Assembly: GCF_041260155.1 (NCBI RefSeq)
Contig: NC_091932.1
Location: 5,231,501 to 5,295,500, forward strand
From: Ptychodera flava
Taxonomy: Eukaryota; Hemichordata; Enteropneusta; Ptychoderidae
DNA: 64,000 bases
Direction: 5' to 3'
The position numbers were made by a program, and so were the translations under genes. Of the stretch, positions 26,691-53,368 are shown piece after piece. The notes below the pieces were generated by a model that saw only the letters and a list, made by a program, of their open reading frames with translations, was not told where the DNA came from and did no database searches. The number at the start of each line of letters is the position of its first letter. The first letter of the stretch is position 1.

Positions 26691-26699
26691 TTTACCTTG

Positions 26700-28800: not shown

Positions 28801-29016
28801 ACTTGGGGTCAACTAGCCCTGCGTACGATGCTGTGTGTTCCGCTACAGCTAATCGCCCCGCTCACCACAGCCCTGAAAAGACCCGTACGTAGGGTCGGTG
28901 ACTTCAAATCCATTTTGGGACTTGACGTAAAAAGCCAAATTACTGCCGAAATTCAGCGTTCTTGGGCCCAAGTCGATCCCAGCCTACCTCAGCTACTCGA
29001 TCGCTTCCAAAAATGA
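28603..29016 (+). CDS. Open frame of 137 codons overlapping a repeat motif, doubtful
   Basis: The C-terminal half (VRRVGDFKSILGLDVKSQ...) has protein-like composition. However, the middle of the frame (LRTMLCV) lies on a repeat motif also present at 8366-8388 and 29069-29128. This suggests it belongs to a transposable element. No family recognised. Confidence 0.22.
   Translation: MNFNCVTSLRNEYSVERSTNDILEIWRHGTSHFYFSILYFTKDLRSNDFVENSEKNIGRFDREHIFTWGQLALRTMLCVPLQLIAPLTTALKRPVRRVGDFKSILGLDVKSQITAEIQRSWAQVDPSLPQLLDRFQK
28813..28840 (+). repeat. Copy of the CCCTGCGTACGATGCTGTG motif
   Basis: The same motif occurs at 8366-8388 and in both arms of the hairpin at 29069-29128. It is probably the terminal repeat of a small DNA element. 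Confidence 0.55.
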
Positions 29017-29068
29017 CAGTCCTTTATTCACTTCTCGTAAATAACCGTCGATGTCGGCAACTCTCTCG

Positions 29069-29128
29069 CTAGCCCTGCATACGATGCTGTGTGTTAGCTG
29101 TAGCACATAGCATCGTACGCAGGGCTAG
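29069..29128. repeat. 25-bp-arm hairpin built from the GTACGATGCT motif
   Basis: Arms of 25 bases with two mismatches (left begins CTAGCCCTGC, right ends GCAGGGCTAG) and a 10-base loop. Together with 28813 it may mark the two ends of an element of about 315 bp. Confidence 0.65.
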
Positions 29129-29482
29129 GGGTCAACATGGGGTCGCAGCCATGTTGCCTCAAATCTTATTTCTGTCTGCACTCAAAACTCAAAAATGTCG
29201 GATATGAACCTGAAAAATCGATGTAATTTTGTCAAACTTCGGCGAAATTTCAGCCTATAGACAAAATTTCATCTGGTAAGGTAAATTTACTGAAATTTGA
29301 TCGTGAAATAATCCTGAGCTTGAACATGACAGCTCGCCTTCTCCGGGAAGTCAAGTATCCAGCTGCCCATACACAGTTGATTTGGCCAGGTTTATGAGAT
29401 TGTTTTCAAGCGACGGCGGCAGACCGTACGGGGCTCTGGATATGAACCTACCGCCGGTGTAGCTGTAATAACTGTTGCGTTG

Positions 29483-30570
29483 TTTTTAGTGCCCACGGAC
29501 GAAGTCCTGGGGGTGTTATACTTATAGGTTGGTCATGTCAGTCCGTCCGTTCACGCAGATAAGCTTATCTCAGACATGCCCCTGTCAATTTCTTTCAAAC
29601 TTCGCACAAGAATGGTACCCAACCCCATACAGATGCACGTCGATTTGTTTCACAATGCGATCGAATTTGGCCGTGTTAGAGGACTTTTTAGTTTACACCT
29701 CCATAGACTCCCATGTATAGGGCCAAGAAAAATAAAATTTAGTTTCTCATCGTATTCATATTGCCTAAAGGATGCAGTGACACAGTTTTTTGTCCCCACG
29801 GATAAAGTCCAGGGGGCTTACATATTGGGTCATATCCGTCCGTGAGTCCATCAGTGAGTCCATCCGTTCACGCAGATATCTCAGACATTTTGACAAAATA
29901 TCATGTGACCTTGGTGACCTTTGACCTCAAATATACATTATTGTCCATAACTCAGTAACCACAAGTGCTAAACCTTTCATATTTGGTATGATGGGACACC
30001 TTATGACGCCACATATTGTACTCCATTAATTATACACATATCTAATTTTGAGCGAGCCAATAGAGCTAGAGGTCTGATTTTTGGTATATAGGAATAACTT
30101 AGCAATACAATTATTATGACAAAATGTGACGTGACCTCAATGACCTTTGACCTCAAATATACATATTTGTCCACAACTCAGTAACCACAAGTGCTACACC
30201 CTTCATATTTGGTATGATAGGACACCTTATGACACCACATATTGTACCTCATTAATTATGCGCATATCTAATTTTGAGCGAGCCAATAGAGCTAGAGGTC
30301 TGATTTTGGTATACAGGAATAACTTAGCAATACAATTATTTTGACAAAAATGTCACATGACCTCAATGACCTTTGACCTCAAATATATATATTTGTCCAC
30401 AACTCAGTAACCACAACTGCTACACCCTTCATATTTGGTATGATGGGACACCTTATGACACCACATATTGTACCTCATTAATTATGCGCATATCAATTCT
30501 GAGCAAGCCAATAGAGCTGGATGTCCGATTTTCGGTATATAGGGATAACTATAGGGTAGAAATCTAAATA
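29483..30570. mobile_element. Repeat-rich non-autonomous element with about 226-bp tandem units
   Basis: Two head modules (CACGGACGAAGTCC near 29492 and CACGGATAAAGTCC near 29799), each followed by a CCGTCCGT tract and TTCACGCAGAT. Three tandem units then start near 29891, 30117 and 30342, each opening with TGACAAAA, then GTGACC-rich sequence and CATATTTGGTATGAT. Non-coding: the parallel frames at 30147 and 30373 are copies of the same unit. Confidence 0.75.
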
Positions 30571-32570
30571 CGCCCATCTAAATATTAGACATCTACTATC
30601 GAGAACAAAAGAAATTTGCTGTAATTTGAATATTTAAGGAGTTTAAGCAATTTCCACTATAAATAAAGAACCCCTGCCTCAAACTCCACAAAAGTGCTAG
30701 ACATATTTTGCCGTTGTCATGCCATTGCTTCGTTTATAACCAGTTAATCAATGCCTAATTGACAGGAGGAAATTCAAGACCATATTTGAATAGTAGTATA
30801 TATTGTCCTCAAAATTACTCTATCACGGCCCAAGTACTCATTGCCTTCAGCAATTCTGTTTTATTTTAATTTTATTTAATACACAGATCAACGGCAAACC
30901 CACTAACAGATCTGACAAACAAAAAATGAAAATCACAAGACGAATATACAAGACAACCACATAAATAATACGTCACGTGAAAAAAAACCACACAAAGCAA
31001 GAAGCAGTACTATCAGTACTATTAAAATGACTGGATAAAATGGTTCTAAAGTCCCTTGATGATGTGCGTTTATCAGTGTTGGCGGAATATCCAAGCCAAA
31101 AGCCGGACGTGGCTACGTGCAGTTTCATTGCAAGTATCAAGTATGGACATTTCATAGGGATTTCTCCCATTGCTTTTAGATGTCTGTCGACTATTGCAAG
31201 GATCGTTGCAAACTTTACTGTATAGTTAGCCTAACCGCTAAGCTTTATTTGCATTAATTTCTGACAATGCCAGTAATCAAACAACGACAGAGTAATTACC
31301 CGAGTTCATTACTCCATTAAAGGCTGATGGATGATCCAGTATAGGTCCTCAGCCTACTAACAAATCAATACCAAAATGACCATTGTTAAACCTGTAAACG
31401 AAACACAGCATATGGCTATAAGTGTCTTTGGAGAATGCAAACGGGTGCATAGAACACGAAAGTCGCTGCGTTCATCTGGCGGGCGTGCTAAGCGCTATTT
31501 GAGGTTAAACAATTGACATTCTCACACTCATTCGGCATCGTAATTATGTTAGCAGCACAACTTTCTATCCAAACTAGACTTCATAAATTCTCTTTCTTTC
31601 TCGTTCGATAATTTTTAAGTCTGCAGCTACTCATAATAAACCTTTTGAACTGGATGATTTATAAAACACAAACTTTGGAAAAACATGAGTATATCTTCGT
31701 GATTTATGAGACTGTTGCAATGATCAGTACAATTTTACAACGATTAAAATTTATGGAATTGCATGCGATTATTCGCTTGATCAGATTTTTATTTCCGTGT
31801 TCTTCTATCGCTTGTAGTTTTACGTGTGTCCAGAATGAAATATTTGTGACTGGACAAACAGTGAGCTTAGCACAACTAAATTAAGGCAAAAGTTGAGAGA
31901 GAAAACCTGAAAGTGCCCAGGATGATGTTGTGCGTAATTCAGGTATCCTTTAAGACACGAAATACTATCTTGTATCATCTAACAGATGCTGACACTGGTT
32001 CTAATCACAAACTCATTAACAGATGTTATTGTACAGATGTCCGAATGTCCTTACGGTTCAGAAAAATCGATGCCTTCAAGTTGATGCATGTACGTCAGTC
32101 AAGGTCAAAGCGGCAGTCCTCAATCCCTTGTTCACACATTCGTGATTGTTGACATTAACTGTCCTTGAAGCTTGTTGAAATTCATGTCCAGTGAATCAGC
32201 TTGTTCATAGATAAAGCTGATAAACAAACCAGCCCGTTTAAAGACAAAAGGAAAGAGAGGACAACAGAGCTATGAACAGTGATTTTAAATATTTAGTTAG
32301 TCTTTACCTGAAGTCTTAATGGTCATTGTAATGTGCTGAAGCGTATTTTTTACATTTAAAGCACGATAATGTTTTGCTCGGTAAACCTTTCGAAAAAGTC
32401 TGCTGTGCCTCCATGATACTCGGCGAAAACAGCTGCCTCTAAATCGATTGACAATTCTATGCCAATGGTACAAACTCTCCCAAGTGCTGTAATTCCTACT
32501 GTGCGATATACTGTTTTATGCTGTTTGAAATAACACAAGAATAGTGTTTAGTTTCTTGTCGCTGTGGTCA
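30571..32570. other. Intergenic, no gene seen
   Basis: AT-rich. Short frames at 31040, 31645 and 31913 lack similarity or splice support. Confidence 0.5.
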
Positions 32571-32577
32571 GTAAGTT

Positions 32578-32690
32578 AACAGAAACAACACAACACAACA
32601 AACACAACACAACACAACACAACACAACACAACACAACACAACACAACACAACACAACACAACACAACACAACACAACACAACACAACAC
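32578..32690. repeat. (ACAAC)n microsatellite
   Basis: About twenty ACAAC units. The frames reading Thr-Gln-His-Asn and Cys-Cys-Val-Val-Leu here are artefacts. Confidence 0.97.
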
Positions 32691-32931
32691 GACCAAAATC
32701 TAAAAGAAACTTTCTGACTTGCTGCCATTTCGAATTTGAACCAAGCAGTCGATCAGTATCGTTATAGAACACAACTGTGCATACCCAATGAAGGGTTTAG
32801 TGACGTCATAACGTATTATGACACACCGATAGGTAAGAGTATCGTAACTATTTTTTATCTTATCTCGAAACATGAACTTTTTGTATATAGCTTTATTTTT
32901 AAGATCGTTTGTAGGCACTGAATTGATTTGA

Positions 32932-33177
32932 ACAGCTCGGGTATACCTCTTTTTAAGCGTACAAAATGATAATTATTTGCTTGCGAATTAAGGCCATTCT
33001 TTTGGAAGAACAGTGTAGTGTGAACGGTAGAATGGCATTTATTCGCAAGGAAATGATTATCATTTTGTACACTTTAAAATGAGTATACTCGAGCTGTTCT
33101 TCCGAAAGAATGACTTTTATTGGCAAGGAAATAGTTATCATTTTGTGCACTTCAAAAGAAGTGTACTCGAACTGAAC
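32932..33177. repeat. Inverted-repeat element with one inverted and two direct copies of an approximately 75-bp unit
   Basis: The unit (GTAC-ACTTT...ACAAAATGATAA...GAATGGC) appears inverted at about 32932-33012, then twice in tandem from about 33030 to 33177. Ends GAACAGCTCGG and CGAACTGAAC are related. Non-coding. Confidence 0.65.
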
Positions 33178-33615
33178 AAATTTAATTTGGTGTTCATGGA
33201 AGTTGATTCAGCGATGGATTGTCGGAATCCTGAGTGATATTATCTACAAGCATAGCATCATGAGCCCGACACCATGGCTGGTAGTGGTCTGAAGTTAATT
33301 CTTGGTGCACAACATGTCCATACTATATATTGAGTAGCTGCAAATTTGACCCATTTTTTCGAAACAATTAACTGTACAGTGCCTTCCAAATACACCATTT
33401 ATTATTTAAATCTATCCATAAAAGTGACATTTTTATTCCTTTACAGTCTACTTAATTGAATATTGTTTAAATTTCAATAAGGAACCCTAGCGGCCTGCCA
33501 TGTTGTACCCAGCATTTATTCCCAATTTGGGTTGGCGCTTATACTTTGCTTCTCTCGAAGAATAAAATAACTTAGTGTTGTAAATTAATTACATCGTAAA
33601 AAGGGTTTTCTACAG

Positions 33616-33757
33616 CACTGCATGGGGCTGCCATGGATATCAGCAAGAGCAAAGGTATATATGTCTGGATGGCTTCGACAAACTCGTACACTCTAGGCAT
33701 CGTATTGCTAGCAACTTTGGCACTGAGCTAAACAAATCAACGGAATATTATCAGCAG
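33616..33757 (+). other. Possible exon upstream of the V-domain gene
   Basis: Bounded by a good acceptor (tttctacag) and donor (cag/gtaaac). One frame reads MDISKSKGIYVWMASTNS followed by a hydrophobic run and a stop. It could be a 5' untranslated exon of the 34189 gene or the last exon of an unseen upstream gene. Weak support. Confidence 0.22.
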
Positions 33758-34008
33758 GTAAACTGCTTTTTTTTCAATCACAAATTTGCCACACAACTGA
33801 CATTGAACATGAAGAATGTTGTTTTTTCATCTGTTTCATGTCTTCATATGCAGCCAAACATTACAGCATTGTTCCTTTGTAATCGCAAAACCGGTAGACG
33901 TCACTTTTCTTTGGGCTATCATAAATATGACGTTGGTATTCTAAAGCCTGTTATTTCAATAACATTGACATGTTTATTCCAACGTCTCGTGCTACATTGG
34001 TCATGTAT

Positions 34009-34013
<5 letters not shown>

Positions 34014-34090
<77 letters not shown>
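34014..34090. repeat. (GA)n microsatellite
   Basis: Pure GA run 100 bases before the first coding exon of the V-domain gene. Confidence 0.97.
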
Positions 34091-34096
<6 letters not shown>

Positions 34097-34188
34097 TCTG
34101 TAAACAATAGATTGTCAACATGCACGTATGAATCACACTCATGTTTATGTTATTGACTTAAGTTTTGCTATATTTTCCACCTAGACAA

Positions 34189-37100
34189 ATGGTCGCAATG
34201 GTAAAAATCGTAGCTTTGGCAGTCTCTTTACTTTTGGTATCGTTAGGCCACGAAACAAGTGAGTATAACAAAAATAATTTATTTGGAGGATAAATTGATT
34301 AACAACCGTTAAATACTATTGAAACAGTCATGTCTGCTCTTCACTACTTCTAATAACAGTTTCCATTCGAATTGCAGGACATAAATTTAATGTGATCAAT
34401 TTTTAGAAACATAATCGCTGAAGTGTTCAAACAACTTCATGTTAGCTTCGATCATGATATCACATGTTCTATTATAGGTGCTGGTTTAAACTGTGTCACT
34501 CGATGGTCTAAGTTGTCTCATACCAGGGACGATGCACAGGCCCGGGTAACTTGCCAAGGCAATGAAAAGATGACAGGTTGTAGTAGCTATCAACCCGGAC
34601 CAGGGGGGCATGGAACTCGTGATGGGGAATTTATCCACGTGTCGAGTACTGGGAGAGTATCCTGCGCTGCGCGGAATGGCAAAGAAGGGACAGGTATATA
34701 TTGTCACAACAACTAATAAGTATTCTGAAACAGTCACTCAAAGTGTGGCACATCTTCAGTGACGTGATATTTTCCCAATCGGCCAGTTCTTTCTGTTGCG
34801 AGCGTTTGTATCACACAAAAGCAGTTATCTACATAATAGATGACGGGCAGTCTAAAATGGAACAGTTCATACGCAATTTTAATCCACATTCGCATTGTTT
34901 ACTTATAGTACAATATGTTTAACTCTCACTACATGCCCTGGCGCAGGCTTGCAGACCTAGTGCTATTTATTCTCGAAGCAACGACACGGTTTTGTCATAT
35001 TCGTAGCAAAGTGTTTCAAATAAAATTTAACTAAACACTATTGTTTTGGAACTGAGAGCAAAGCATCATTCATACGTACGCCCATCTGATAGAAATCTGA
35101 CAGGAACATCTGGATACTTATTCTTTTCCCGCCAATTTTACAGGCGTTCGAGCATACGCAAGGTGTTGTACGGCAGATGGATTGACGTGTGGTTATGCTG
35201 ACGGTGCGAGATCTGGAAGACAATACAATGATTCAAGTACAGTTTCGTTTTCCACGTCAGACGATTCAACTTTTATGACAGGTGTGTGGGGTTCACTTAA
35301 TGTAATTTGTGTTGGTTTTCAGATGCGATGTCTATCACAATACGTCTTGTTAAGCTTACAGAAGGAATGCTGAAAACAATCATGAGATTAATTAATCGGT
35401 TTGCCTGCAGGTTGTTCCGCCTCTACTTTCTGGAGAAATTTAAACGGAGCCTCGCCTAACCCAATCAATGCATCGATTGAAGTAGACACAAGGAACGGCC
35501 AATGCGTAGCTCTGAACGGCCGGGGTGGACTTGGTAAGTGCCTTTGTTAATATGTTTGAGATCTCCCCGTCCACTAATTCCCCAAATCATTTGAGTAGAC
35601 TACAGTTGGTTTATCAATCGATTCCACCCTTCTGTACTTGTATTCCTTGCAATGCCAGTCAGGAATCCTAACATATATTGGCATGCCTCCATAGTCTTTA
35701 CTACTTACGCCCGTTTCAGTCTTGTTGTCGGTACTTTAGGATTCATTGATCGTGAATATTACTTAATTTCATCCATTTCATGACGTAGAACACAGCATAC
35801 TAAAAATTGCTCCACATCGGTTCCTTTAGATGAATGACGTATGTGGTAATTATTTAAAATGTTTTGGGTTCTAGCAATCGATGTTCTTTAGCTGATTGTA
35901 CTGTTTGCTCCTTTGACATAGGAGTGTACGCTCATGGCGTGTACTGTTCTGCTCCCAATCTTACTTGTAAGACAAAGTGGAGTGAAAAAAGTCAAGGCGG
36001 AGTGGGTGCTGTTGCTACGGTTACCTGTGAGGAAGAATGGACTCTCACTGGCTGTAATGCATACACTCCCTATAAAGAAAACGACGGTTCCTACGTTCTG
36101 AGTAAGTTTAGTATGTCTACCAACGTGTAACCCCTTCTGTCTGTCTGTCTGTCTGTCTGTCTGCATGTATGTGTGTATGTATGTATGTATGTATGTATGT
36201 ATGTATGTATGTATGTATGTATGTATGTATGTATGTATGTATGTATGTATGTATGAATGCATGCATGCATGCATGTATGTATATATTATGTCTCTACGTA
36301 TGTCTTTATATATGTGTCATATTTCTATAATTTTCTCATTTGCTGCAATTTTACCTTCTTAAAAATCGCACGGGCGTGAGATTATGTCCCACATATCTTT
36401 CAAAAATTGGCGCGAAGATGCATTTTCACAATTCTTTGTTCTGATTAAATGGCGCCGCCGTTCAGGAACCCGTATATATGAATTAATTTCTTATGATTAT
36501 TCATAGATTCCCTTGTGTACAAAGTTGGACAAAAGAAAGACGCTGGTAGGGTGCTTTTCATACTTTCACGGCTTGGATCTTAAACAATATTGTTATGTGG
36601 GCAAACTGATAACTTGTACATTGTTTCTTTTCAAAAGTCGGTAGAACTCAAAGTTATATTTATTGTACTTTCTAAGACGATTGAGCCGACAAAGAACTGT
36701 AAATGTATAAATTGAGGTTGCTTTCGTGATTAAGGGGTATTCACTGGAGATTCTGTTTTACACAGAGCCCCATCTCTCACGGAGGCCTAGGGTCGGCCGA
36801 GATAGGCCGTTCCCGCAGGGCACCACACGAAAAGAACAGTGAGTTGACTGTACGAATTAATTCGCCACAAGTCGCTGTCAAATCCTAGAAATCAGAGGAT
36901 TCAACGGGACGGCTGCAGCGATACAGACGAATTGAAGAAGATGCCTTACCAAGCGCACTTCGACGCTCAAAGCAGGACCAAGTCCACTCCAGTCAGCTGT
37001 ACCAAACCCAGAACGGAATCCGTAGCAAGAACTTTCCATAGACCAACGTCTCCAGAGATGCCGTACATCTAGCGCCCCGACAACAAGGTAATATTCTAGT

Positions 37101-40100
37101 TCCACTGCGAAACCAACTTTAACCATGAGATGAAATATTCAACTAAAGAAGCAAACACGAACATTGAACTGTCGGACAATAGTCTGTATTGAACTTGTTT
37201 GAATTTAGTTTGGATAAGCTGATAAAGCTGATAGAGTACTTTTAAAGTGATACTTTGATTTTTTTCGTCCTTGCCAAAACGCTATATGATGTCATCAACG
37301 TATCTCCATTTTTGAAAATTCTGTTATTTTCTTCTTTTAAAAAAAACTGTTTAATTTGTGCCTTTTCGTTGGATTTCATCGCAAATTCTTCACACTCCCG
37401 ACAGCATTTTTTTTTGTTTTGATGAAATGCTCCAGTCATCAACTTTTTAAGCGCGGGGTTTATGTCTGTTAGAGCACCTAAACAAGGTTTTCTGTTGGTT
37501 GCCTATTAAGCATTTACATTTTGCGTCTTAGAATGACGATGCCGGTCTTTAGTCGCTGCTCCGATAGGGTTGGTATTGCGCGGGCCAGTCTTTGTCGTTT
37601 GAGCACCTTTAAACTGTTGTCATGTCCTTGACTGCAATTGTTTTTGTTCAATGCGCGAGTGTCTATGAATTTGTTCTGTCTCCGATGAATATGACACGAG
37701 CTACTTTCAAGCCATTCGTTTCGCGATTCTTTTTTTTTACTTAGAAACATTCTACCTGAATCTATGTGGCGATATTTTTGGTAGACATCGTTTTTTTTTC
37801 TTCCGTGGCTTTTTTGTTATTTTAAAATGTATACCGAGTAAGTTATGCGTAATTTATAGAGACAGCATTCGATTCATCCAGCGAGATTTCCGATGGCAGA
37901 GCGACCAGTCCGGACTCTGGGGGATAAATGAAGAAAGCGGCCTTGAGTAGCGAAAAACGCTAGTAATTTATCTTTTCTTTGAATCTGAAGAATGCGTAAG
38001 AGTAAAAGAAGTAATAAGTTAGAAATATTATATATGTTGCGAAATATTAGACATATTGCCATATTGCGAAATTTGAGGGTTTTTTTCTTTTGAAGCGTTC
38101 AACATGCAGTGTTCGTCAGCGATGATAAATGAATAGGCGTCCAAAAAATGGATAAACGCAAGTAGTTTGTCTAACATACACTGAGAACATGCCGTGTTTT
38201 TTTTTAATCTCTAGTCGCCGACACAATATCACATATAGATTCCCTTTTTTCTTATTTCCTTTTTGGCTATATGAAACATTTCACCAATGAGAGAGCGTTC
38301 TTGTATATTTTCAATCTAGCGTTTTGTATGCAAAGATATATTGTTCTGTTTTCGTTTCAATTACAAAGTTTGTCTTTACTTTTCACTGACTATTTTACGA
38401 TTGTTGGAAGTTTTACATGCTATTTTCTGTGTATTTTGATATTTGCCATATTTCTATAATTTTCTCAGTTACCGAAAATTCAATTTCTAGAAAGTCGCTT
38501 AATTAAGGAATATTTGAGACACTTTTTAAGGCTTGAGGGCAAGCCTTTGTGGAAGAATGAACGATGTCATATTTCTATAATTTTCTCATTTGCTGCAATT
38601 TTACCTTCTTAAAAATCGCACGGGCGTGAGATTATGTCCCACATATCTTTCAAAAATTGGCGCGAAGATGCATTTTCACAATTCTTTGTTCTAATTAAAT
38701 GGCGCCGCCGTTCAGGAACCCGTATAGTATGAATTAATTTCTTATGATTATTCATAGATTCCCTTGTGTACAAAGTTGGACAAAAGAAAGACGCTGGTAG
38801 GGTGCTTTTCATACTTTCACGGCTTGGATCTTAAACAATATTGTTATGTGGGCAAACTGATAACTTGTACATTGTTTCTTTTCAAAAGTCGGTAGAACTC
38901 AAAGTTATATTTATTGTACTTTCTAAGACGATTGAGCCGACAAAGAACTGTAAATGTATAAATTGAGGTTGCTTTCGTGATTAAGGGGTATTCACTGGAG
39001 ATTCTGTTTTACACAGAGCCCCATCTCTCACGGAGGCCTAGGGTCGGCCGAGATAGGCCGTTCCCGCAGGGCACCACAGTCAATAAACCTGGTCAAGTTC
39101 CACACCGTACACCTGTTGTCGCCGTATTACTACGTAGCTGCACCCATGCCCTTATTTTGATATTATGACATATGTATGTCTCTATGTATGTATGTATGTA
39201 TGTATGTATGTCTCTATGTATCTAGGTATGTATCTAGATATGTATTTGCAGGAAAGTTTTGACCTTTAATTAGTCAAACAGACTATGCATAAAAGATTCT
39301 TTTTCCGTTAGTGGTTAAACGGACAAAGTATATACATAGCTGTCTTTGAGTAGCAGTGTTGTCATATATTGTTTCAGAATGGAAATTTATTACTCAGCAT
39401 CTGCAAACATGCCGAAAAACGTGTCCGCGCAATGCCTCAAGCTGCATTAACAGGCAGGACAGATTAAATTATACCAAAAGTATCTTGCCGTGTTACATTA
39501 TGACACACGACCGCTTGAATATATCACAGCCTGGTATACTGACAAACTATATCGGGACTGGAGTTGATATTATCAAATTGTAAAGAAAATGTTCTTGCTG
39601 TTCTGGAATCACGATTAAGGGGAACTTCAGACCACAGTACGCGTAGATGGAGTAAATATATAGATCAGGCGACACAGGAATTAACGTTGTGCTCGAAACT
39701 TTATTTGCCCAGGTCAGCCTGATGGCTGCCTTGGGCAACTCTTAGCTCTGAGAGCCTGGAGATATGCTCACTCCAAGGCCCCCAAAGTCTGACTCTCAAT
39801 TTTACAAAACTTTGTCGACAAGAAAACTTGCCAACGCTTGTTTCACAATGATTAATACATAGTATGCATGAGACATGTCACAACACCATTGTTTTAAATC
39901 CAAGCTGTGAAAATATGAAAAGCGATACTTAACAGCTACAGTTCTGATAAAAGTTCGACTATATTGTCTTTCTATTGTCCAACCTTGCGTGAGACATTCC
40001 CTGCATAATCATAGGAATTCACGAGACATGCGGGTGCCTGGAATGGCGTTGCCATTGAATTTAAACAAAAGAGACTTGAAAATGTAAATTTGCCGCCAAT

Positions 40101-40432
40101 TTTGAAGAATTACCCCTCCGGTAAATCGTGGGAATTCAAGCCCAAGTGGCGAAATGTTGAAATTTGGCGAATTACTAGAATGAAGATTTACAGTAACCGG
40201 TGCAAATTATAGAAACATGACAATATCATGCCTTTTATCTGTCAACATCATTTCACTTCATTACTTATTTGCAGAATGTTGTTCATTTTGCCATGACATG
40301 TTAACGTCCAAAGGTCACCTTCCCCTGACACAATTTATTTTTTATTTATTCATAGGTTGTGGTGATTGTGTTGCAGTCAACGGAGGCAATGAACAGTACG
40401 TCTATGCCATAGCAATCTGTTGCAGAACATGA
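34189..40432 (+). CDS. Secreted stand-alone PCSK9-type C-terminal (V) domain protein, 267 residues
   Basis: Six exons: 34189-34258, 34478-34693, 35144-35281, 35411-35533, 35922-36101, 40356-40432 (stop). Every intron is phase 1. Exon 1 encodes a signal peptide (MVAMVKIVALAVSLLLVSLG). The rest is the three-module Cys/His-rich domain that follows the protease in PCSK9. Module 1 has GVRAYARCC against PCSK9 GVYAIARCC. Module 2 has FMTGCSAS. Module 3 has CEEEWTLTGC against CEEGWTLTGC, ending YAIAICCRT against AVAICCRS. No subtilisin domain is encoded, and the signal peptide joins the domain directly. Module 1 keeps all six cysteines. Module 2 lacks the second and one of the final pair. Module 3 has one extra (CGDC), so the total of 17 leaves one unpaired. 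In PCSK9 this domain mediates protein contacts; the partner here is unknown. A young LTR element sits in the last intron. Domain identity is firm; function is not known. Confidence 0.92.
36174..36257. repeat. (GTAT)n microsatellite
   Basis: GTAT units preceded by a short TCTG run (36135-36162), in the last intron of the V-domain gene. Similar GTAT sequence resumes at 39171, beyond the LTR element, so the element appears to have landed in or beside this microsatellite. Confidence 0.95.
36315..39170 (+). mobile_element. Young non-autonomous LTR retrotransposon (fossil)
   Basis: Direct terminal repeats at 36315-36827 and 38565-39170 start TGTCATATTTC. The element ends TATTATGACA and is flanked by a 4-base duplication TATG (36311-36314, 39171-39174). 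The right repeat carries AATAAA near 39083, giving + orientation. The repeats differ at only about two positions over roughly 510 bases by eye, so the insertion is recent. The 1.7-kb interior shows no gag or pol similarity, so the copy is non-autonomous or broken. Superfamily not assignable; a 4-base duplication would fit BEL/Pao or some Ty3-like elements. It lies in the last intron of the V-domain gene, on its strand. Confidence 0.82.
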
Positions 40433-40518
40433 AAATTCAATACAGAATCTTCAGAGTCTTCGTCCTATTATGCCATTTATTTCGACTGGCTTTCAAGATG
40501 ACCTTTCATCAAATAATG

Positions 40519-40524
40519 AATAAA
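40519..40524 (+). terminator. Candidate polyadenylation signal AATAAA of the V-domain gene
   Basis: Canonical hexamer 87 bases after the stop codon at 40430-40432. A second AATAAA lies near 40643. Confidence 0.55.
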
Positions 40525-42061
40525 TTAAGATATGTGGTAACGGTTGTGTTGATGAAGTCTTTAAAGATATTTAAATAACATATGAGACATAGACTAAAAT
40601 GTTAAGTTTTTACTAACAAACATTCCCTGTGAATCAAGGAAATAAATGTGAGAGCTGGAGTATATTTCCTGTTGCAAATTTTAATGCAGTGTCTGTCTCC
40701 TCAGGATTTTATTTGAGGTGATATTGGTCATGACTTTGAAATGCGATATTGGCATCTAAGTCACTAGCACTTAAATTGATGCAAATAGCCAAAGATTAAT
40801 ATTTACAATCATAAACTTCATGGAGGAGACGAGGTAATATTTTGTTCTGCATGACACTTTATCGATCGACATAACATATATACTTTGCTGCCTTGCCCAG
40901 GCTGCCTTGGTCTCACAGGAGGAACTCTTTAAATCTAGAATTTCACATACGACTTAGTCTAAATCATGCTTCTAAGACAAAACATAATTGGACTAAATTT
41001 ATAGTCTGTGATAGTAGCATTAAAGATTTTATTTCTTGATAGATTTCCAATACATAAACATTATGCTGTTTCAACTTCCGGAAATTGCAATGACATTGTA
41101 AAGACAAAACAGCACCAAATGTTACTTCGTTCATGGTTTAATTCTTATCATATTTAAACTGGAAAGTGAACGCCCTAAAAAAAACCCGATATGTTTATCT
41201 GCGTAATGTTAGTCAAACCTTGGCCACTTCTAAGTTTGCCTTTGATTCTCTAGAGCTACCTAAGTCTCCTTATCCGGCACTACGGCACTAGGTTTTCTAG
41301 TTTGTCCAAGTTTCAAAGCTGCAGCCTCTAATAAGTACATTTGGTCCTATAGCTTGGATACGTCGAGGCAGAAGCGAGATCCCATCTGTATTTCTGACTC
41401 AGCAAGTCAGGTTGTTTGTATTTGACAAGGCCTCTAACAGGTATATGTATATTGAATGGATTATGAAGCTGGTAACCATATGAACAGCGAACGCCTATCA
41501 TCAATTCTTCGCGGATTTCAGTTTTACCTGTGTTTTTAGCAGGCAGACCTTTACTAACAAATCATTTTAGTAAGTTGCGCCGAAGGAATGACTACTCGTT
41601 TGCTTACATGAGACGAAGGACGTAAAATCAATAAACCGTTCTGTCCAAAATCATGATTTCCTCGGCTTGAGATGAAGAAAACTGAGAATCGTTCTACCTC
41701 GTATTTTTGGCTTTTAAAGTCGCCTCTATTTCAGTGACAATGTTACTAGATATTTTTATTCGTCTGGTGTGTAATCAAACTTCGTCGTATGGTACTCCAA
41801 ACATATCAATCCTACAATCACATATTCAGGCTTTAAGGTATCATTACACTTTATCTCTGAATCATTCCTATCTTGCATGGTAAAACTGACCATTTTGATA
41901 TGCATTGGTCGATCTACTGACCAGAGATGATACGGACCACAAGAATGAGTTCTCACCTAGATCCTGAAAACGGGGCAAGAAGTTTACATTCCTAAAGATA
42001 AAATCGGATGATGTGAAAATTTGTGCAAAAATGGAACAGAGAATAACCACAGGAGGCATCA
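40525..42061. other. Intergenic, no gene seen
   Basis: Downstream of the V-domain gene. AT-rich, with only short frames and no recognisable repeat by eye. Confidence 0.55.
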
Positions 42062-42396
42062 TGGGCCAGTGGCTAGAGCAGTGGACTCACGATCACAGGA
42101 TGGTGAGTTCGAGCCCCGGCATGGCCATGGTGTTGTGTCCTTGAGCAAGGCACTTTATTCCTCATTGCTTCTCCCCACCCAGGAGTGATGGGTACCTGGT
42201 AGGACAGTGGTTGTAATGTGTGTGTTTAGCTCTGCTGCGCTTATTGGCTGCACATGTGAGCTGTAGTTTGCTCCCCAGGGAGTTGAGTGGTATCATATTA
42301 GGTCCAGTGACCAGGGGTAATAATAATTGTAAAGCGCCTTGAGCACATGTACTTGTGGATATGTGCGCTATATAAGAACCCAATATTATTATTATA
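42062..42396 (+). mobile_element. tRNA-derived SINE
   Basis: The head contains RNA polymerase III boxes (A-like TGGCTAGAGCAGTGG, B-like GAGTTCGAGCC). The central part CCTTGAGCAAGGCACTTTAT resembles a domain shared by many metazoan SINEs (Nin-type, from memory). The tail GCGCTATATAAGAA is followed by a short ATT repeat. The tail resembles the 3' end of the CR1-like LINE at 44230-45675 (GCGCTATATAAATT), which suggests that LINE family supplies the machinery. Confidence 0.85.
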
Positions 42397-42399
42397 CGA

Positions 42400-44210
42400 C
42401 ATAAACAATGAATGTTGATACTGGTTGATATGGTCGGCTGATGTACGTGATTGCCAAAGAAAGCGAAAACAACTGAATGGTATAGAGGTTGATACGTGTT
42501 ATTTAAACGATAAGAATGACTTCAATTTGTTCTAATCTTTTTGACAAGCATCGTCCCACGATGTAAGACCAAGAAGGGTGTTATGTAAAAAAAACCCAAA
42601 ATTTACTTTCCATGAGATATCAATTTATAATAAAAATATTTCCTCATCGTGTATGCCACTATAAAAAGCATGTATCCTCTCATCCCGCAGCAGTTTTATG
42701 GTATGAGCATTTGTTTAATTACGATAATTACGATGCATTCGTATTTTTTTCAGAATGGAAGTGGTTCGGTCGACCTCCATACAGGAGGACAATGCATTTT
42801 GTGAAAATGTGACCCTAAAATAAGTCTGTTGCCATGGCAATACTACTACACGGCAACTATAGTCGTAAATTTCCATCATACGGAGAACTCTCGCGACTTG
42901 TGAATTGTAATTTGTGTGAAACTTTTTGTTTCATAAAGTTTCCCAACAGCATCACACAGCATGAATTTTTTTAACTCAAATTAGACCTCGATGTGATGTA
43001 AACCTTGGAACGCAAAAGTCGGCTCTTGAAATACGACAATTCAAATCGTTCAGCAAAGCCGTAACACCGAAGTCTGGAATTCACCTTGAACAAGCGTCAC
43101 ACGTGTCACAATATCCTGTCACAGTGCTTCCTTAAACTTTTGCCAAAACGTTCCCCGGGAAACTTTCAACCACTTAGAAATCAAGAATAAAATAATGTGT
43201 CACCGTGCACTTTTACATGTTCAGAATGATCTCGTTCCTAAAGTCAGTGTACCGCACGTCAGACTTTTGAGACTTACAGTACATTTGTCACGTGACAGAA
43301 GTGTAAGCTGAGGACGCTCGAATTTTGCTGACGAACTTCAAACTATATCGACCGTGGACACAATTGCAAATTTAATTTTGAAGTAGATTTAAACGTAAAC
43401 ACCGTCGGACAAATTGATTTAGCATTCGATTCATGCTTAGAAACATTAAAACTGCTAATTCAGCAATTCTAGTTATCAAGTTAAGGGTCTTTTGTTTATT
43501 GGATCAACACAGTTACTACCGCGAGATTGGTTGAGATTCTGCCACAAGTTTGAAATAGTGCGCTGGGCAACGATGATTACAACAGCTTACTACATGTCAT
43601 CGTATTTTGCAAAAAAAATGAATTTTTATGACATTATACCCATTTTTAATATGACACTTGTGTCAATTCCACCGTGTTCACCCTAGCTATTGAATATTGG
43701 GCTTCCCTATAGCGTTATATACTGTGTTTGTCGATAGATTTGTGGCAACTGATGCGAACATAACCATCGGATAAAATAAGCTTGACAGATATTATACCAG
43801 CCAAAGAACATTTGCGATGTAAATGTCATACATTTACATTCAGTGATCTGGAACTTTATTAACCATGGAGGATGTAGTGCGCTTACTTTAGGACAAGTAA
43901 TAAACATATGCCTCGTCATATCATCATCCGCATTGCTGAAAGAAACGACGCCCTCACGCGAGATGAAAAGAGTTTTCAGGGGAACATCTCTGTGACAACC
44001 TAGTACTTTACTGTGCCATTAAACCAACCGATGTAGACATAAAACAGTCGAAAGATGGAAGTAAAGATGCGTTGATTTGAAAATACAAGTCTCACAACAT
44101 TTTGCCACTTATTGCTACATTCCAGTTTTAATCTCGATGAAGTGGGATTACACCCTCGAAACCTTAAAAAAAAATTTTTGTTTGATGTAAAGAATAGAGT
44201 GTCATGAAGA
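42400..44210. other. Intergenic, no gene seen
   Basis: AT-rich sequence between the SINE and LINE copies. Small frames at 42612 and 43492 have no similarity. Confidence 0.5.
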
Positions 44211-44229
44211 TGTTATATATATATATATA

Positions 44230-45675
44230 TACACTGGGATTGTTCCGAGCTCATTTAAATCGGCAGTTGTTACTCCATTACTGAAAAAACCTTCACTTGA
44301 TCCAGACATCCTGAAAATTACAGACCCATCTCTAACCTTCCATTCATCTCAAAAGTTACAGAAAAAGTAGTTGCCAAGAGACTCAATGCCTATCTCAACA
44401 GTAATTCACTTCTTGAACCGCTCCAATCTGCCTACAGAAAATTCCACAGTACTGAAACTGCACTTCTAAAGATCCACAATGACATTACTCTCTCCCTCGA
44501 TGCTGGGCAATATGTTATCCTTGTAATGCTTGATTTATCTGCAGCGTTTGACACCATCGACCACAACGTTCTGCTTTTACGCCTCGCTCATCTGGGTATT
44601 CAAGGTACTGCCCTCAAGTGGCTTTCATCATATCTCACCAATCGATACCAGTCCGTCATAATTCAATGGTCATTCGTCACAATCAACTCCACTTCAATTC
44701 GTTGTTCCACTGGGATCAATTCTAGGACCGCTTTTATTCACTCTCTTTACTATGCCCCTTGGACAGATAATCCGAAATCACAATCTTAAATTTCACCAAT
44801 ATGAAGATCATAACCAACTTTATATGGCCGTCACAAAAATCAATGGGCCGACAGCAATTCTCAGATTGAAGACTGGATGATATCAAACAAATTACAACTA
44901 AATGTTGGCAAAAAAGAAATCCTCCTTATTCGTTCACGATATGATCACTCACCAACCACCAGTGACAGCATTCAAGTTGGATCAAGCTCCATTCAACAAG
45001 CAGACACAGCACGCAATATTGGATTCCTGTTTGACAGTAGCCGCGATTTCAAGAAACACATAATTCAGACCTGTCAGAGTATCTATCTGCTTATCCGCCG
45101 TATTGGATTCATCAGGAAATATCTCTCTCAAAAGACCTGTCTGACTCTCATGTATTCAACTCTTTCTGCCAAGCTAGACTACAGCTCACTACTCTACGGT
45201 TTACCGGACTCATACATCAGATTACTACAAAGAGCACAAAACTCGGCTGCCCGTTCTCATCACAAAAACAAGCAAAAGGGATCACATTACACCAATCCTG
45301 AAGGAACTTCACTGGCTCCCCGTGTCTTACAGAATTCAGTTCAAAATCCTACTTCTCACATATAAATCAATACATGGACTCGCTCCTTCATACCTGGCTG
45401 AACTCATTGAAGTCAACACCCCTAGCAGATCTCTCCGATCAAGTTTACAAACCACACTTAAAGTTCCACGAACTCGGTTAAAATCATACGGTGACAGATC
45501 CTTCTCCTATTCCTCATCAATTCTATGGAACAAACTGCCAGCTCCTATTCGACATTCGCACCTTCAGATCTCTGCTTAAGACTCATTTCTTCAAGAGAGC
45601 TTACCTGTGACCTAGTGTAAAGCGCCAGTGAACATTGCTGATGGATACTAGGCGCTATATAAATTATTTATCCTA
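44230..45675 (+). mobile_element. 5'-truncated CR1/L2-like LINE
   Basis: Reverse-transcriptase motifs in order: NYRPISNLPFISKVTEKV (one frame break just before it), STETALLKIHNDI, MLDLSAAFDTIDHN, then the catalytic box reads QYEDHNQLY where QYADDTQLY is expected. Further on: LDYSSLLYGLP, LHWLPVSYRIQFKILLLTYKSIHG and WNKLPAPIR, typical of the C-terminus of CR1/L2-type LINEs. The frame is broken several times (around 44300, 44740-44800, 45270-45320, 45560). The endonuclease and ORF1 are absent. The 3' end is GGCGCTATATAAATT with a TATCC-like tail running into (AT)n. Confidence 0.88.
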
Positions 45676-45676
45676 T

Positions 45677-45680
<4 letters not shown>

Positions 45681-45758
<78 letters not shown>

Positions 45759-45795
45759 GTGTGTGTGTGTGCGTCTGTGTGTGTATGTGTGTCAA
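45681..45795. repeat. Compound (AT)n-(GT)n microsatellite
   Basis: AT run following the LINE tail, then about 35 bases of GT. Confidence 0.95.
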
Positions 45796-45918
45796 ACTTG
45801 ATAGATACACACTGCCACACCCAGTTGTTTGATGGTAGTGGTAGTCTGTATCAATCAAGTTTTCTTTATCATCCCACTCTACTCTCCACTGGGGATCAAC
45901 TGCTAACGTCCTATTGAT

Positions 45919-45920
<2 letters not shown>

Positions 45921-46012
<92 letters not shown>

Positions 46013-46020
46013 ATGTGAGC

Positions 46021-46107
<87 letters not shown>

Positions 46108-46160
46108 CGAGCGGGAGAGAGAGACAGAGAGACAGAGAGACAGAGAGACAAAGAGAGACA
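45921..46160. repeat. Compound (AT)n-(GA)n microsatellite
   Basis: About 85 bases of AT, a short linker, then about 135 bases of GA with GACA variants. Confidence 0.95.
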
Positions 46161-47384
46161 GAGACCGACCCGTAGATAGATACTAGATGTACTAGATGTT
46201 GGATAGTAGGACAGATGGATGGACGAGAAACCTAGTTTTACCACTCAGATTGTATGGTGCTGGATACAGGATAGAATAAACCACTAATAAACTTATTCCG
46301 TGAGTGAATATTGCAATTCATTTCTATTTGAGGGTATTGATTTCAAGTGTGATGTACGGGCAAGACATGATCGTGAAATATTGTTTACATCATTTGCAAA
46401 CTGATCATGTCTTGTTCCAATGGTGGTTGCAGTTTAGTGTCGAGTGAATGAGTTCTAACACGAATGCAATAAAAGTAGCACCACCTGTTTGTCAGCATGG
46501 GCGCACCAACCATCATCAGATAAAAACGTATCAGGCATGAAAACATTAGAGCAAGGCAGTGGCAAAAAAGGCGAATACTATGGAACGCCATGACTGGTCT
46601 AATATCATGTTGTCCTGGGCATTCAATATATGGCTTTCCATAGTATACCGACATGTACATTCCGCTTCGGTTGTACTGCAGTAAATGTTGTAACTGTATT
46701 TGTATTTACTTTGTCTAAGCTGTTGCACCCATGCATTGCTTTACGAAAGTCTCCCCGTCTTATAGAAATCAGTATGAGTAACCCTTAATCACCGAGTTTC
46801 TCATACAAATTTGTGTTGTTTACAATATGGATTTTACTCATAGTTTTATAGCGTTATTCAGGTATGCAGCTTGTCTCTGTGTGTTTATTACTGATGTTTC
46901 CACTACAAAACAGTAATCCAGCTTTTCTAATCTTTCTTTGACTTGAAAAGTTTTTCAATATTATTGCTGGTCATAACATCCCATTTGGCTACTTATTTTA
47001 AATCTGTCGCTGTCAATTGCTTCCTGATTAAATGGATACAAATACACAAACATAAGTTCATTTTTACTTCAGCAATTTATCATTCGAACTGATAAAGAAC
47101 TCTTCCTATAATCGTTCAAGTTGTTAGGCTGAAACTAATGCAAATTGAAGATTGTATACGTTTGGAACTGTTCGGTCTATGGGTTTCTGCAGCAGATAGC
47201 AATGGCGTAGATGTATTGGCCGTTTCCTCCGTTGACAGCAAAGCATTTTTCATCTGAAAAAGCAAAACATTCTTTCTTTTACGTTTATCATACGACAAAG
47301 AAAGGGTGTCATATACGCAAACACACATATACACAGTCATGCGCACGACTAGACTAAAAGATCCATCGCTCTTTACGCTCTTTA

Positions 47385-47873
47385 CCCGGGGGGGGGTAAC
47401 TCCCATAGATGGCTATACGGGGAGGGTCGCGCGAAAGGGGTCGTTTTTTGCACTGTTTGGTATCAGAAAGGGTGTACTTTTCACGAGGTGTTGTTATGAG
47501 AAAGGGTCCGGTTTTAAACACAAACTGACATTTGTTAAAAATCATGCTGTCAACACTGGAAACCCATGTATCTACATCCCAGATTTACCATCAATATTTC
47601 CGATCTGTCGGTTTGACTGTTGGTACCCCTGGTACGCAAGGCGAGTGAGTAGTATCTGTATACGTATGGTATTGTATGTTGGCGGGGTAGCGTGAGTTGC
47701 TATGCGGGTCAAAGGTCAACCCCACGCTACCCCGCCAAGAGATAGCTGCGTTTCGACAACTAGGTATCAGAAAGGGTAGGTTTTTTTGCTCAAAACTGGT
47801 ATCACAACAGTTTGGGTTTCCATGTTCGTGCGGAGCCCCCCCGTACTATTAGCCATGGAGTTACCCCCCCGGG
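47385..47873. mobile_element. G/C-tract inverted-repeat element with internal hairpin
   Basis: Inverted ends GGGGGGGGTAACTCCCATAG and CATGGAGTTACCCCCCCGG. Direct repeats of GGTATCAGAAAGGGT at 47459 and 47764. A perfect 16-base-arm hairpin lies at 47679-47738 (TTGGCGGGGTAGCGTG). It sits in the last intron of the - strand V-domain pseudogene. Non-coding, family unknown. Confidence 0.65.
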
Positions 47874-48309
47874 GCTCTTTCGCTCCCCTCCTCTTACGAC
47901 TGAACGTGGTCTGTCACATGGGGCGGCGAGATGAAAGAAATTTAGTCACGCCTACAGCTGTTTCTGATATCGCTAAAATATGTGAAGTTTATGTAGAGTG
48001 CTGTTGAATATTTATTGAACCAAGTCCCCTCTCTGCATAATAAATGTGGTGGTCATGGCAACGCTGTCAATCAATTACGATTGTGCTCCCCAGTCTGTCA
48101 ACACAATATTGTATATATTCACACGTGGTAGGAATTAGTCAACAGGCGAGTAGTTCTGCTCTCAATTGGTTAATTTTCAAATCACAAGGGCTGCTTCCTT
48201 AAAATGATCATTGAAAATCTAGTAAAACCATCTTAAATCAGGTTGTGAGTGATGAGGGACATAGTTGGCCGGGGGAGCGTAGAGGGCGCCTTCGAGTGAC
48301 GGATCTTCC

Positions 48310-48402
48310 AGTGTGTGTGTGTGTGTGTATGTGTGTGTTGGTGGTGGTGGTGGTGGTGGTGGTTGTGTGTGTGTGTGTGTGTGTATGTGTGTGTGTATGT
48401 TT
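48310..48402. repeat. (GT)n/(GGT)n microsatellite
   Basis: GT run interrupted by GGT units, in an intron of the - strand pseudogene. Confidence 0.95.
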
Positions 48403-50164
48403 GTACAAAAAAAAAACCGCGAAAATAACAACTTATTCTTGACATTGCTTGTAAGCATTTGAGTGTATGAAAATACTTTTTCTGGTTTACATTTTGAACT
48501 CTTCAGAGGAACAACACAGTGTATCTTTAGCTTTATGTGTAATATAAAGCTCGCTATCTTCTGCGTGTACACACTTGTTGATCACATGTGAAGAATATGG
48601 TACGCACATGTGGACATATACAGCTGTGAAAAACCTACTTTCGATATAAGTGCCGTCATTCATCAAGTGATAGGTCAAAGAACTGCATCCTGTGAGGGTC
48701 CAGCCTCTATTACACGATACCAATGCCTTGCTACCACGACCACCGTGACCTTTGACACTCCATTTCGCTCGGCATTCAAGGTTAGGGGCGAGAACAGTAG
48801 GCTGCATTTGCAGTTACCCCTGTATATGAAGAAAAAAAGGGATATCGTTCTCTGAGAATTGATTACGGAAGTAAACTCAACCTGTCCTGTACATATTTTC
48901 TCTTAATGTTGATGATAATACATAATACTAGATAAATGTAGCACATGAATAGTTTCTTCCCTTGTGATATGTGATATTATTTTGATTGCCGATATTACTT
49001 TGAGGAAAAGTATTGTCAGGAGCTTCAGAGATTCCCAATAGATAAATTGTTAATGCGCAAGACTGTTTGAGGTAAACCTTTAGCCTATTTGCCAAATGAA
49101 TAACTTTGTTTAAACAAAATGAAATGTTTGATAACTCACCTTTACCACGTAACCGTTTTGAGCGAAGCATTGTCCATTTCGTATAGATGTCAACCGTTGG
49201 GTGATAAGTGAATTTGGCGCGGCTCCATCGATGTATTGCCAGCGAGTGCTTGCAGAGCATCCTGGAAAGTCAATGACAAACTGGATATTGTGCAAGACAT
49301 AACACGACTATATTCTGATTAACATGAGGACTCGAGGGCCGATATCAGAATACCCTCGTGATAAGAGGCTCTATCTAAAGAATTGACTGAGCATTTATTA
49401 TGTTCCCAAGATATTGAGGGAGCATTAACACAGCACTTTATTAGTTCGAGGAAGCCACATAAAAACTGTAGCCAGATCAGATCGTAGTCGATGGATTAGA
49501 AAAGTTACAGTAATAGCATGCATTTGGCGGTATAAGGTTTAAACCCCACAGGGTGAGAGTGGCAACTGCATCAACGGTTAAACAGAGCTCGAGTTTTGTG
49601 TAAATTGAAAACATGACTACAGCAGGGTGGCGATCGTCCTGTTTATTTCAAACTTTATTTGTAACTTGGTTGTTTGTTTCAAAGTGCAGTGCCGAATTAC
49701 TGAACATTTTCAAAAGACTTGATATTAGAACGCTGTTAGTCAGAATGTGGAAGATGAAGAATATTTCCATCACATTCAAGAATATTGGGCTCTCCCATTA
49801 ATCCATAACACAGGAACTCATTATCTCTACTTCTATCTGTTTTTTTATCATTTCAGTGTGACTTTCCTTTTGTTTGTGTAATGCTGCTATGGACACATTG
49901 TCAGAAATAAACTTCAATAATAGGCTTATCCTCCAAGCTGATGGTAATATTTACGTCAAACTTTGGCCTGCTAGAACGTTATCTCAAAGAATAAATGCTA
50001 TTTTCAGCCCATCTCAGAGCTTTCCGAGCCCTGAGAAAAGGATGCACACTCTATAAAAACAAACTTACTTCAGCCAATAGGTGTTCCAGACAGGTGTAGC
50101 ACAGCGATTCAGTAAATATTCCCTATTCTAAGAAATAACAGTGACGCGACCGTCAATTCGTAAC

Positions 50165-50266: not shown

Positions 50267-50311
<45 letters not shown>

Positions 50312-50539: not shown

Positions 50540-50808
50540 TTTATCTACTGTCTACGGTAAAACACGCACTTCTTACCTGTAAGATGGACTGCCTTTCCCG
50601 GCACACGTAATGACACAGTACTTCTAGCATCGTCTCCCCTACCGGAAAGTGAAGCCCGCGTATAGAAGCACTCAAGTCCCCTGCTTACACAACACCTAGC
50701 ATATGCTCTAACTCCTGCCGAATAAAGAAGTTGACGAACATTTTATATATATTCTAGTAACCATGGAAAAGCTCCAATAATCTTCTTGATATCGCAAGTA
50801 CTCAAGTT

Positions 50809-50920: not shown

Positions 50921-53368
50921 AAGTAAGAGATTGCATATGCGACGCCCTCAACGACGATCTGAAGTGTACGTTTCGTCTTTAGGTGTAACCGTGGACGCGC
51001 GCGCGTTCGTTCGACTTGTCTCACGTAAGCGAGAAAAACTGTCGGTATGTACATGTAGAGGCTAATACGTATTTAATTATGTTTTTATGCATGTCGTTAA
51101 GTCTCTGGTGCATGAAACTTGGATCGGCGATTGAGTTGTAATTCCCAAACAATGAGCCTCATTGTTCATCAGCTATGACGTTGAACGAGTTACATTTTAC
51201 CAAAAATTTGAATAGTGTTTGAAAGAAGCTTTTATCATTCTGCGTATCAAACTACGCATAAGTGACATGGCACCAAACTTTAAATATTAAAACATACGTT
51301 TACGGCGAGACGAGTATCGGCTTTCAGCTTGGAAATTAATGTACGTCGTCCTCCTGTCTTTGGAGGCAAATTGAAAACAGAACAGGCAAGTCACTCACAT
51401 TTTGCAGGCATATTACAATGGCATGTTATACCGAAATCTATATTGCGGAGCACACTCCGTAGATAACACTTGAAACACTATTAATCGCCCATGAATATTC
51501 ACTATAGATAGATTTACCTTTCCCTTTGTAACCGTTTCGTGCAACACAAGTTGGCTTCCCTCTGTTCGATACTTCAAAGAATTCTCCGTCACGAGTTCCA
51601 TGTCCCCTGGTCCGGGTACATAGCTGCTACAGCCTGTCATTTCTTCAGATCCCTGGCAGGACACCCTGTGGTGGCGTCGTCCCCGGAGCCAGAAAGAGAC
51701 GACATTCTAGTTGTGCACCTCAAACCAGAGCCTACAGTGAGCAAACAAAAACCTGGTTCCGCGACATGTATATTGGGCCTTTCAAACTATGAATTCTCTA
51801 CGGAAAACTGAGCCAAACGTATATTGACTGATGCTACGTCTTGGGATATGACGTGGTTGTTCAAGTATTTCAAGATTTATTTGAAAATTCCTTAAATATG
51901 CAAATTACCAGCTAAGTCAGCTGACGTGAAATGCGAATATGTCTTTCACTACTGATAACTACTGATCAACATAACGCAATATTTTATTTTTTTTCAACTT
52001 TTCAACTTCTAAATCATCCTTCTTTTGTTTATAAATTTCCTTGAACACTTTAAATTCAAATAGTCACAACTGTGTTCTTTTTTTCAAAAACAACACACCA
52101 CTATTTTATGGGTATATTGTTTTTAATGGGAAAATATGCTTTTATAATTATACAGTATTTTACGATCACATCTTCCCTTATTTAACCCTCATTGTGTAAT
52201 ATTTTCATAGGATTAGTACCCCACTTTTCCTCCATGCTTCGTTATCCACCTGATGTTTGTTTTTTTTCTAACGCTCACTTTTGTATAAACATTTCGAGCA
52301 ATATTTTTTATTGACTCCCTGAATATCATTCTGAAAATCTGCTTTTTAGAGATTATTCAAATTTGCTGTCACATTATTCTTATGTTAACCATGTTTAAAA
52401 AATACAAAACAAAGCAATTGGCGATATCTAGGCTTTCAGAGCATATACATTCTGGGCACGTTACGAGCTCAATTGTTTGAGGGAAATTTATTGTTTGTAA
52501 AGGCCAAATAGACAAACCTGAAACATAAGGGACTGCTATTACACTGTTACTACTCTATATTCCATGAAATACCAATCTCCATACAGAGATTGTAGTGCGG
52601 TGTGTGCAGCAGTGCGGTTAGTACTGACCAGTATTTTCGTTGGTTTGATCGTTGAACATCTTGTGGAATACTGCGTTTTCGTTCCATTGCCCAGTATGGG
52701 TGAATTTAGAAAAAAATACTCAGAAAGCTGCAGGAGAACATATGTTTCACTACATGCGTAAATACATTTGATCAATGTCCGTACAGAGATTGTAGCGCGG
52801 CATGGATAATTATAACCTAGCTAGATAGTCTCAGCATTAGCGGGTACAACGCGGAGACCCTCTAGCTTGATTAGAATTATCAAGAATAATATTGCCACTT
52901 TGCAACGTCTGGATACGTCAATGTCTTTGTTTCGATGAAGGGATACTTAAGAAAGCAAATTAACTTTCCGTTTACATTTTATACTTTTAGGATCGCTGAC
53001 TACAATGATTAGAATGATCAAGACTATGTTTACGTTTAATCATTGAAACTCTATGCTGTTTTGTAAACATTTTGTAGGGATAAATGTAGCGATAACCTTG
53101 AAGTTGTTTATAAAAGTAAAAGGTTTATTAGTGACAGATTTCCATGAATTCGACAAATCACTGCGTTTTTCGTCGTTTTCCTTTATCTGAAGTAAATTAG
53201 ATATAATTTCAATGACTGTTGTCTCACATATCACAGTTTGCAAACTACACCGTATTAATTTTAAAAGTGTCTTCTGTATTTTGATGAAACTTCCGATTTT
53301 TACTTACTGGTGTCATGAGTAAGAGTTGGTAAAACCAGACTCAAGATAATCACAGCAGAAAAGACCAT

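Follow-up and report, generated by a model that had tools for sequence, protein, structure and literature searches.

A probable stand-alone PCSK9 V-domain homologue and a second, frame-broken copy in the hemichordate Ptychodera flava

The human PCSK9 tail, known as the V or Cys-rich domain (CRD or CHRD), is built of three modules (M1 to M3) with six cysteines each, paired 1-6, 2-5 and 3-4; the resistin family is likewise made of small secreted Cys-rich modules. The tail is required for extracellular PCSK9 to route the LDL receptor into degradation; which sorting partner ('protein X') it uses is a matter of continuing debate (excerpts of PMC9816786 and PMC11119474). The isolated human CRD (residues 449-693), made alone, binds CAP1 with a KD of 1.26 uM, compared with 1.36 uM for full PCSK9 (excerpt of PMC9816786). 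Residues R549 and E567 of human M2 are reported to contact MHC-I proteins (HLA-C), and the basic residues R476, R491, R510, R657 and R659 of M1 and M3 are proposed CAP1 contacts (both in excerpts of PMC9816786 and PMC11119474). Among the openly licensed papers listed, none describes a protease-free V-domain gene, and such a gene may already be catalogued; the available part of PMC2034530, on primate PCSK9, holds nothing on invertebrates and uses the word 'invertebrate' 0 times.

Here we describe a locus in Ptychodera flava, within a stretch of 64,000 nucleotides (NC_091932.1, positions 5,231,501 to 5,295,500; the window, to which all coordinates refer). A sequence-only reading of the window had proposed a gene for a secreted PCSK9 V domain consisting of a signal peptide and three Cys-rich modules, divided by phase-1 introns throughout. 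The gene, here gene A, has this layout: six plus-strand exons (34189-40432), with splicing assigned from splice sites and homology, form an unbroken frame of 267 codons plus stop.

34189..34258, plus strand: gene A exon 1, leader resembling a signal peptide (residues 1-23 plus the first base of codon 24); GT donor, phase 1, open frame, hydrophobic core, counterpart in copy B
34478..34693, plus strand: gene A exon 2, bulk of module M1 (C1-C4); whole M1 matches Pfam PCSK9_C1 at 5.2e-14
35144..35281, plus strand: gene A exon 3, which closes M1 (GVRAYARCC) and opens M2; aligned to PDB sequences
35411..35533, plus strand: gene A exon 4, core of M2 (GCSAS...NGQC); aligned to PDB sequences
35922..36101, plus strand: gene A exon 5, last part of M2 with the bulk of M3 (CEEEWTLTGC); whole M3 matches Pfam PCSK9_C3 at 4.7e-14
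40356..40432, plus strand: gene A exon 6, last part of M3 (YAIAICCRT) with the stop codon; aligned to PDB sequences

All five introns are GT..AG and all five are phase 1, and the three motifs quoted in the sequence-only reading (GVRAYARCC, CEEEWTLTGC and YAIAICCRT) lie inside the frame. The 267-residue product carries 17 cysteines, an odd number, in a leader followed by M1 to M3. The leader is hydrophobic in the manner of a signal peptide, its best 15-residue hydropathy mean being 2.61 compared with at most 0.81 past residue 30. From residue 21, a cleavage point that is our own judgement, the chain would be 247 residues long, or ~26 kDa; three N-glycosylation sequons (at 124, 161 and 195) are compatible with a secreted protein. 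AATAAA occurs 3' of the stop at 40519 and 40641.

Intron 5 is 4254 bp long and harbours an LTR-like insertion:

36315..39078, no strand assigned: LTR-like insertion in gene A intron 5, repeat copies at 36315-36827 and 38565-39078

The direct repeats, ~1.7 kb apart and with TG...CA ends, are identical at 512 of 513 aligned bases with one gap base, and no clear target-site duplication was seen in the flanks inspected. Subtracting the insertion leaves 1490 bp, close to the 1385 bp of the corresponding intron in copy B, the second copy described below. Elsewhere in the window, an RVT_1 fragment (9.6e-15; ~44310-44826, plus strand, in two frames) sits between gene A and copy B. An exon-like Cu2_monoox_C match at ~12353-12439 on the plus strand (E 9.9e-5; 22.3 bits, just under the Pfam cut-off of 23) is perhaps part of a PHM/DBH-type gene, and a minus-strand reading frame at 20222-20839 (206 codons stop-to-stop, the longest among those listed) matches nothing in the PDB up to E 1.

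The gene A product is almost certainly a homologue of the PCSK9 V domain. In a Pfam search the whole protein matches PCSK9_C1 at 3.1e-23 (three stretches) and PCSK9_C3 at 4.9e-14 (two stretches), both above the curated cut-offs. No other Pfam family matches up to E 10; this includes PCSK9_C2, which we take to be the Pfam name for module M2. A phmmer search of the PDB returned 20 distinct matched sequences, of which 17 are PCSK9 (E 7.7e-15 to 2.1e-13), with matches that span gene A residues 21-267 (27-267 in one) and run colinear with PCSK9 449-681; the other three, interleukin-12 receptor beta-1 chains (E 0.0081 to 0.057), were taken as background. Gene A and the human V domain align with a local score of 220, while the maximum over 2000 shuffles each was 69 for full shuffling and 81 with cysteines held fixed. 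The two-sequence alignment holds 75 identities in 227 aligned residues and places a gene A cysteine opposite 15 of the 18 human ones. No relatives were found in viral contigs, prokaryote genomes or phages, collections that are non-animal and hence uninformative about animals. A structure model of the exon-2 fragment, made from a three-row alignment, reached a pLDDT of 48, too poor for comparison.

The three modules are not equally close to their human counterparts. M1 alone matches PCSK9_C1 at 5.2e-14 (52.6 bits, cut-off 31.3) and C3 at 0.0049; M3 alone matches PCSK9_C3 at 4.7e-14 (52.8 bits, cut-off 26.7) and also C1 at 4.5e-9; M2 alone matches only C1, at 0.027. Human M1 is best matched by gene A M1 (score 105, z 10.3), with gene A M3 also high (80, z 9.7), and human M3 by gene A M3 (119, z 14.7; gene A M1 scores 47, z 3.9). 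Because M1 and M3 find M1 and M3, the order of the modules probably predates the divergence from PCSK9, without this giving the direction. Gene A M2 scores 27 (z 1.1) against human M2 and has human M1 as its top match (41, z 3.9); it is placed as M2 only by order, four cysteine columns and one intron. Within gene A the modules resemble one another (M1-M3 109, z 13.6; M2-M3 63, z 6.3; M1-M2 51, z 4.4) more than those of the human V domain do (z -0.3, 1.6 and 2.7), which is compatible with gene A having kept an older form, the direction being unproven.

All six cysteine columns are matched in M1 and four of six in M2, where both partners of the 2-5 pair are absent; M3 has seven cysteines, five of them in aligned columns, the fourth being C244 or C247 where the alignment is uncertain. 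In gene A, T133 and Y190 stand opposite human C552 and C600, which we take to be a disulphide pair in PCSK9, and with both equivalents absent one whole M2 disulphide has apparently been lost. Neither equivalent is present in copy B (VSLRV and AAYC stand at those places), so that the loss predates the split between the two copies. One M3 cysteine of gene A is absent from copy B.

Intron positions also bear comparison with human PCSK9. We take human introns 8 and 10 (c.1354 and c.1681) to be phase-1 splits of the G452 and G561 codons. In the alignment the G452 codon meets gene A intron 1 (codon 24, phase 1) and the G561 codon meets intron 3 (codon 142, phase 1); if these human positions are right, two of the four human V-domain introns thus coincide exactly with two of the five in gene A. 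The probability of this by chance is 0.00022 under uniform placement and 0.000315 with phase fixed, values that are post hoc and hold only if the human boundaries lie as given here. Human intron 9, presumably at c.1503, coincides with no gene A intron. The same is true of intron 11, the exon end at c.1863 being given by the intronic variant c.1863+20 in the available part of PMC7959244. Gene A introns 2, 4 and 5 have no human counterpart. Introns 2 and 4 occupy equivalent places in M1 and M2, each lying seven residues ahead of the fifth cysteine position, as expected if the modules were duplicated together with their introns.

The window holds a second copy that had escaped the sequence-only reading and is new here. 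A tblastn search with gene A returned five exon-sized minus-strand regions, from 51729 to 47180, and reading upstream of these revealed a sixth, leader exon at 53368-53308. Copy B (53368-47177, minus strand) therefore has six exons in the order of gene A, with five GT..AG introns and only a leader upstream, and the two copies are convergent, pointing at each other.

53308..53368, minus strand: copy B exon 1, leader MVFSAVIILSLVLPTLTHDT; 8/20 aligned residues identical to gene A exon 1
51518..51731, minus strand: copy B exon 2, M1; homology spread over three frames, reading frame broken; 214 bases vs 216 in gene A
50577..50714, minus strand: copy B exon 3, which closes M1 and opens M2; frame intact
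49140..49261, minus strand: copy B exon 4, core of M2; 122 bases vs 123 in gene A, end phase off
48639..48819, minus strand: copy B exon 5, last part of M2 with the bulk of M3; frame broken, 181 bases vs 180; PCSK9_C3 3.5e-9 on the in-frame part
47177..47253, minus strand: copy B exon 6, last part of M3 (YAIAICCRNP) with the stop codon

The length changes in exons 2, 4 and 5 break frame or phase, which makes copy B a pseudogene or the product of an error-laden assembly. Identity between the copies is 44-81% by piece in exons 2-6, besides the 8 of 20 residues in exon 1. Searching with the human V domain and the copy B pieces (tblastn) gave no convincing third copy in the window; weak tblastn matches of gene A elsewhere in the window (E 1.2 and worse) were taken as chance. 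Over 249 codon pairs the copies differ at codon positions 1, 2 and 3 in 97, 69 and 150 cases, a count that takes in 13 pairs, at the beginning of an exon-2 stretch, whose register looks wrong where the frame changes. With pN at 0.32 far below pS at 0.76 (dS is saturated), protein-level selection has been long, and both copies spent much of their history as constrained coding genes. The six-exon layout was in place before the duplication, and copy B would have lost its frame afterwards; as copy B is broken, the family may be decaying here.

A protease was sought by three-frame Pfam scans covering positions 5120-63263 of the plus strand and 14810-34191 and 43610-62991 of the minus strand; positions 1-5119 and 63264-64000 (plus) and 1-14809, 34192-43609 and 62992-64000 (minus) lie outside them. 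No match to an S8 subtilisin or its prodomain was found to E 0.1 in the scanned parts, though small exons can elude such a scan: run as a positive control, it recovered two of six gene A exons and one of six in copy B. In the covered parts of both strands the V domain has no protease match beside it, in line with what had been proposed.

On top of the observed layout, homology, duplication, coding constraint and common cysteines, our main reading, to which we give a probability of roughly 0.75, is that gene A encodes a secreted, non-enzymatic V-domain homologue that binds via its module surfaces, probably to a partner other than that of human PCSK9, and that the layout of the pair predates the duplication. 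The chain would enter the secretory pathway via the exon-1 leader, would fold, judging from cysteine conservation, as three disulphide-held modules, and, by analogy with the isolated human CRD, may bind an extracellular or cell-surface protein through the surfaces of these modules. Since the scans turned up no enzyme part, binding is the role that suggests itself, and a somewhat favoured one; that the partner would be a protein is an analogy drawn from human PCSK9. A protease-independent role, suggested in the sequence-only reading, is a fair proposal for gene A only if the gene is expressed. The positions of R549 and E567 hold S and F in gene A, and those of R476, R491, R510, R657 and R659 hold T, P, A, S and G, the alignment of M3 being gapped and less sure. 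None of the seven contact residues is kept, and the partner is therefore probably other than that of human PCSK9. Gene A M2 has one histidine, against eight in human residues 528-601 (nine by a review's own limits; excerpt of PMC10772138), and a pH switch through M2 histidines would not be expected.

Several other explanations deserve weighing. Cys-rich sequences are prone to spurious matches and the PCSK9 modules are reported to be resistin-like in structure (excerpt of PMC10772138), yet that gene A owes its likeness to chance or to a convergent Cys-rich fold, resistin-like for example, is barely conceivable in view of a score of 220 against at most 81 in the Cys-fixed shuffles and of a Pfam search in which no resistin family appears up to E 10. 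A gene model truncated at the 5' end, with protease exons further upstream and a spurious exon 1, is suggested by PCSK9 itself, where the V domain lies behind a subtilisin, and by a scan that is weak for short exons (controls 2/6 for gene A and 1/6 for copy B). We regard it as very improbable: there is no S8 match on the plus strand from 5120 to gene A, nor in the 9.7 kb upstream of copy B on its own strand, and a leader exon with a phase-1 end five residues ahead of the first cysteine of M1 is present in both copies; the repetition of the protease-less layout in copy B makes a spurious exon 1 unlikely. We think it quite improbable that gene A is a dying gene whose product is of no use. The broken copy B, the young-looking insertion in intron 5 and the odd cysteine count would suit such a gene, against which stand the unbroken frame, the five GT..AG introns and the polyA signals.

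Two further proposals concern what a secreted V domain would do. One is that the protein is a natural antagonist that would vie with a putative full-length PCSK9 of the animal itself for the partners of the V domain. In human the isolated CRD and full PCSK9 bind CAP1 about equally well (excerpt of PMC9816786), and a free V domain could therefore compete, but gene A has not kept the residues that contact the known human partners, and we hold this role to be distinctly unlikely. The other, also unlikely, is a host-defence or mucosal binding protein whose secreted modules recognise foreign or surface ligands. A local pair with one broken copy and a wide spread of identity between the copies (44-81% in exons 2-6, 8/20 in exon 1) would suit it; no lectin or immune family is found among the Pfam matches of gene A, however, and silent changes exceed protein changes (pS 0.76, pN 0.32), although with dS saturated single fast sites would be hidden. 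A secreted, non-enzymatic binding protein stays our preferred account of gene A.

Where the V domain came from is a more tentative matter, gene A having been named in the sequence-only reading as a candidate for either the ancestor or a spin-off of the PCSK9 tail. It is possible, if doubtful, that the V domain was first an independent secreted protein and that PCSK9 arose by phase-1 exon shuffling behind a subtilisin. Were this true, the lineage of gene A would keep the donor type, and the likeness of modules within gene A together with the matching introns of M1 and M2 would be relics of module duplication. The PCSK9 tail is able to exist as its own gene; a V domain that naturally lacks a protease would allow a test of what the tail does by itself, and the exon structure of gene A makes the origin of PCSK9 testable across genomes.

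Set beside known systems, gene A shares with the resistin family its make-up of small secreted Cys-rich modules; unlike it, it has three of them fused, and no resistin model matches up to E 10. It differs from PCSK9 in having its own leader exon, with neither prodomain nor protease found in the scanned parts, in an M2 without equivalents of C552 and C600, without a C2 match and with few histidines, and in changed residues at the reported HLA-C and proposed CAP1 contacts. With the PCSK9 V domain (CRD/CHRD) it has in common three modules, their order kept, and 15 of 18 cysteine columns.
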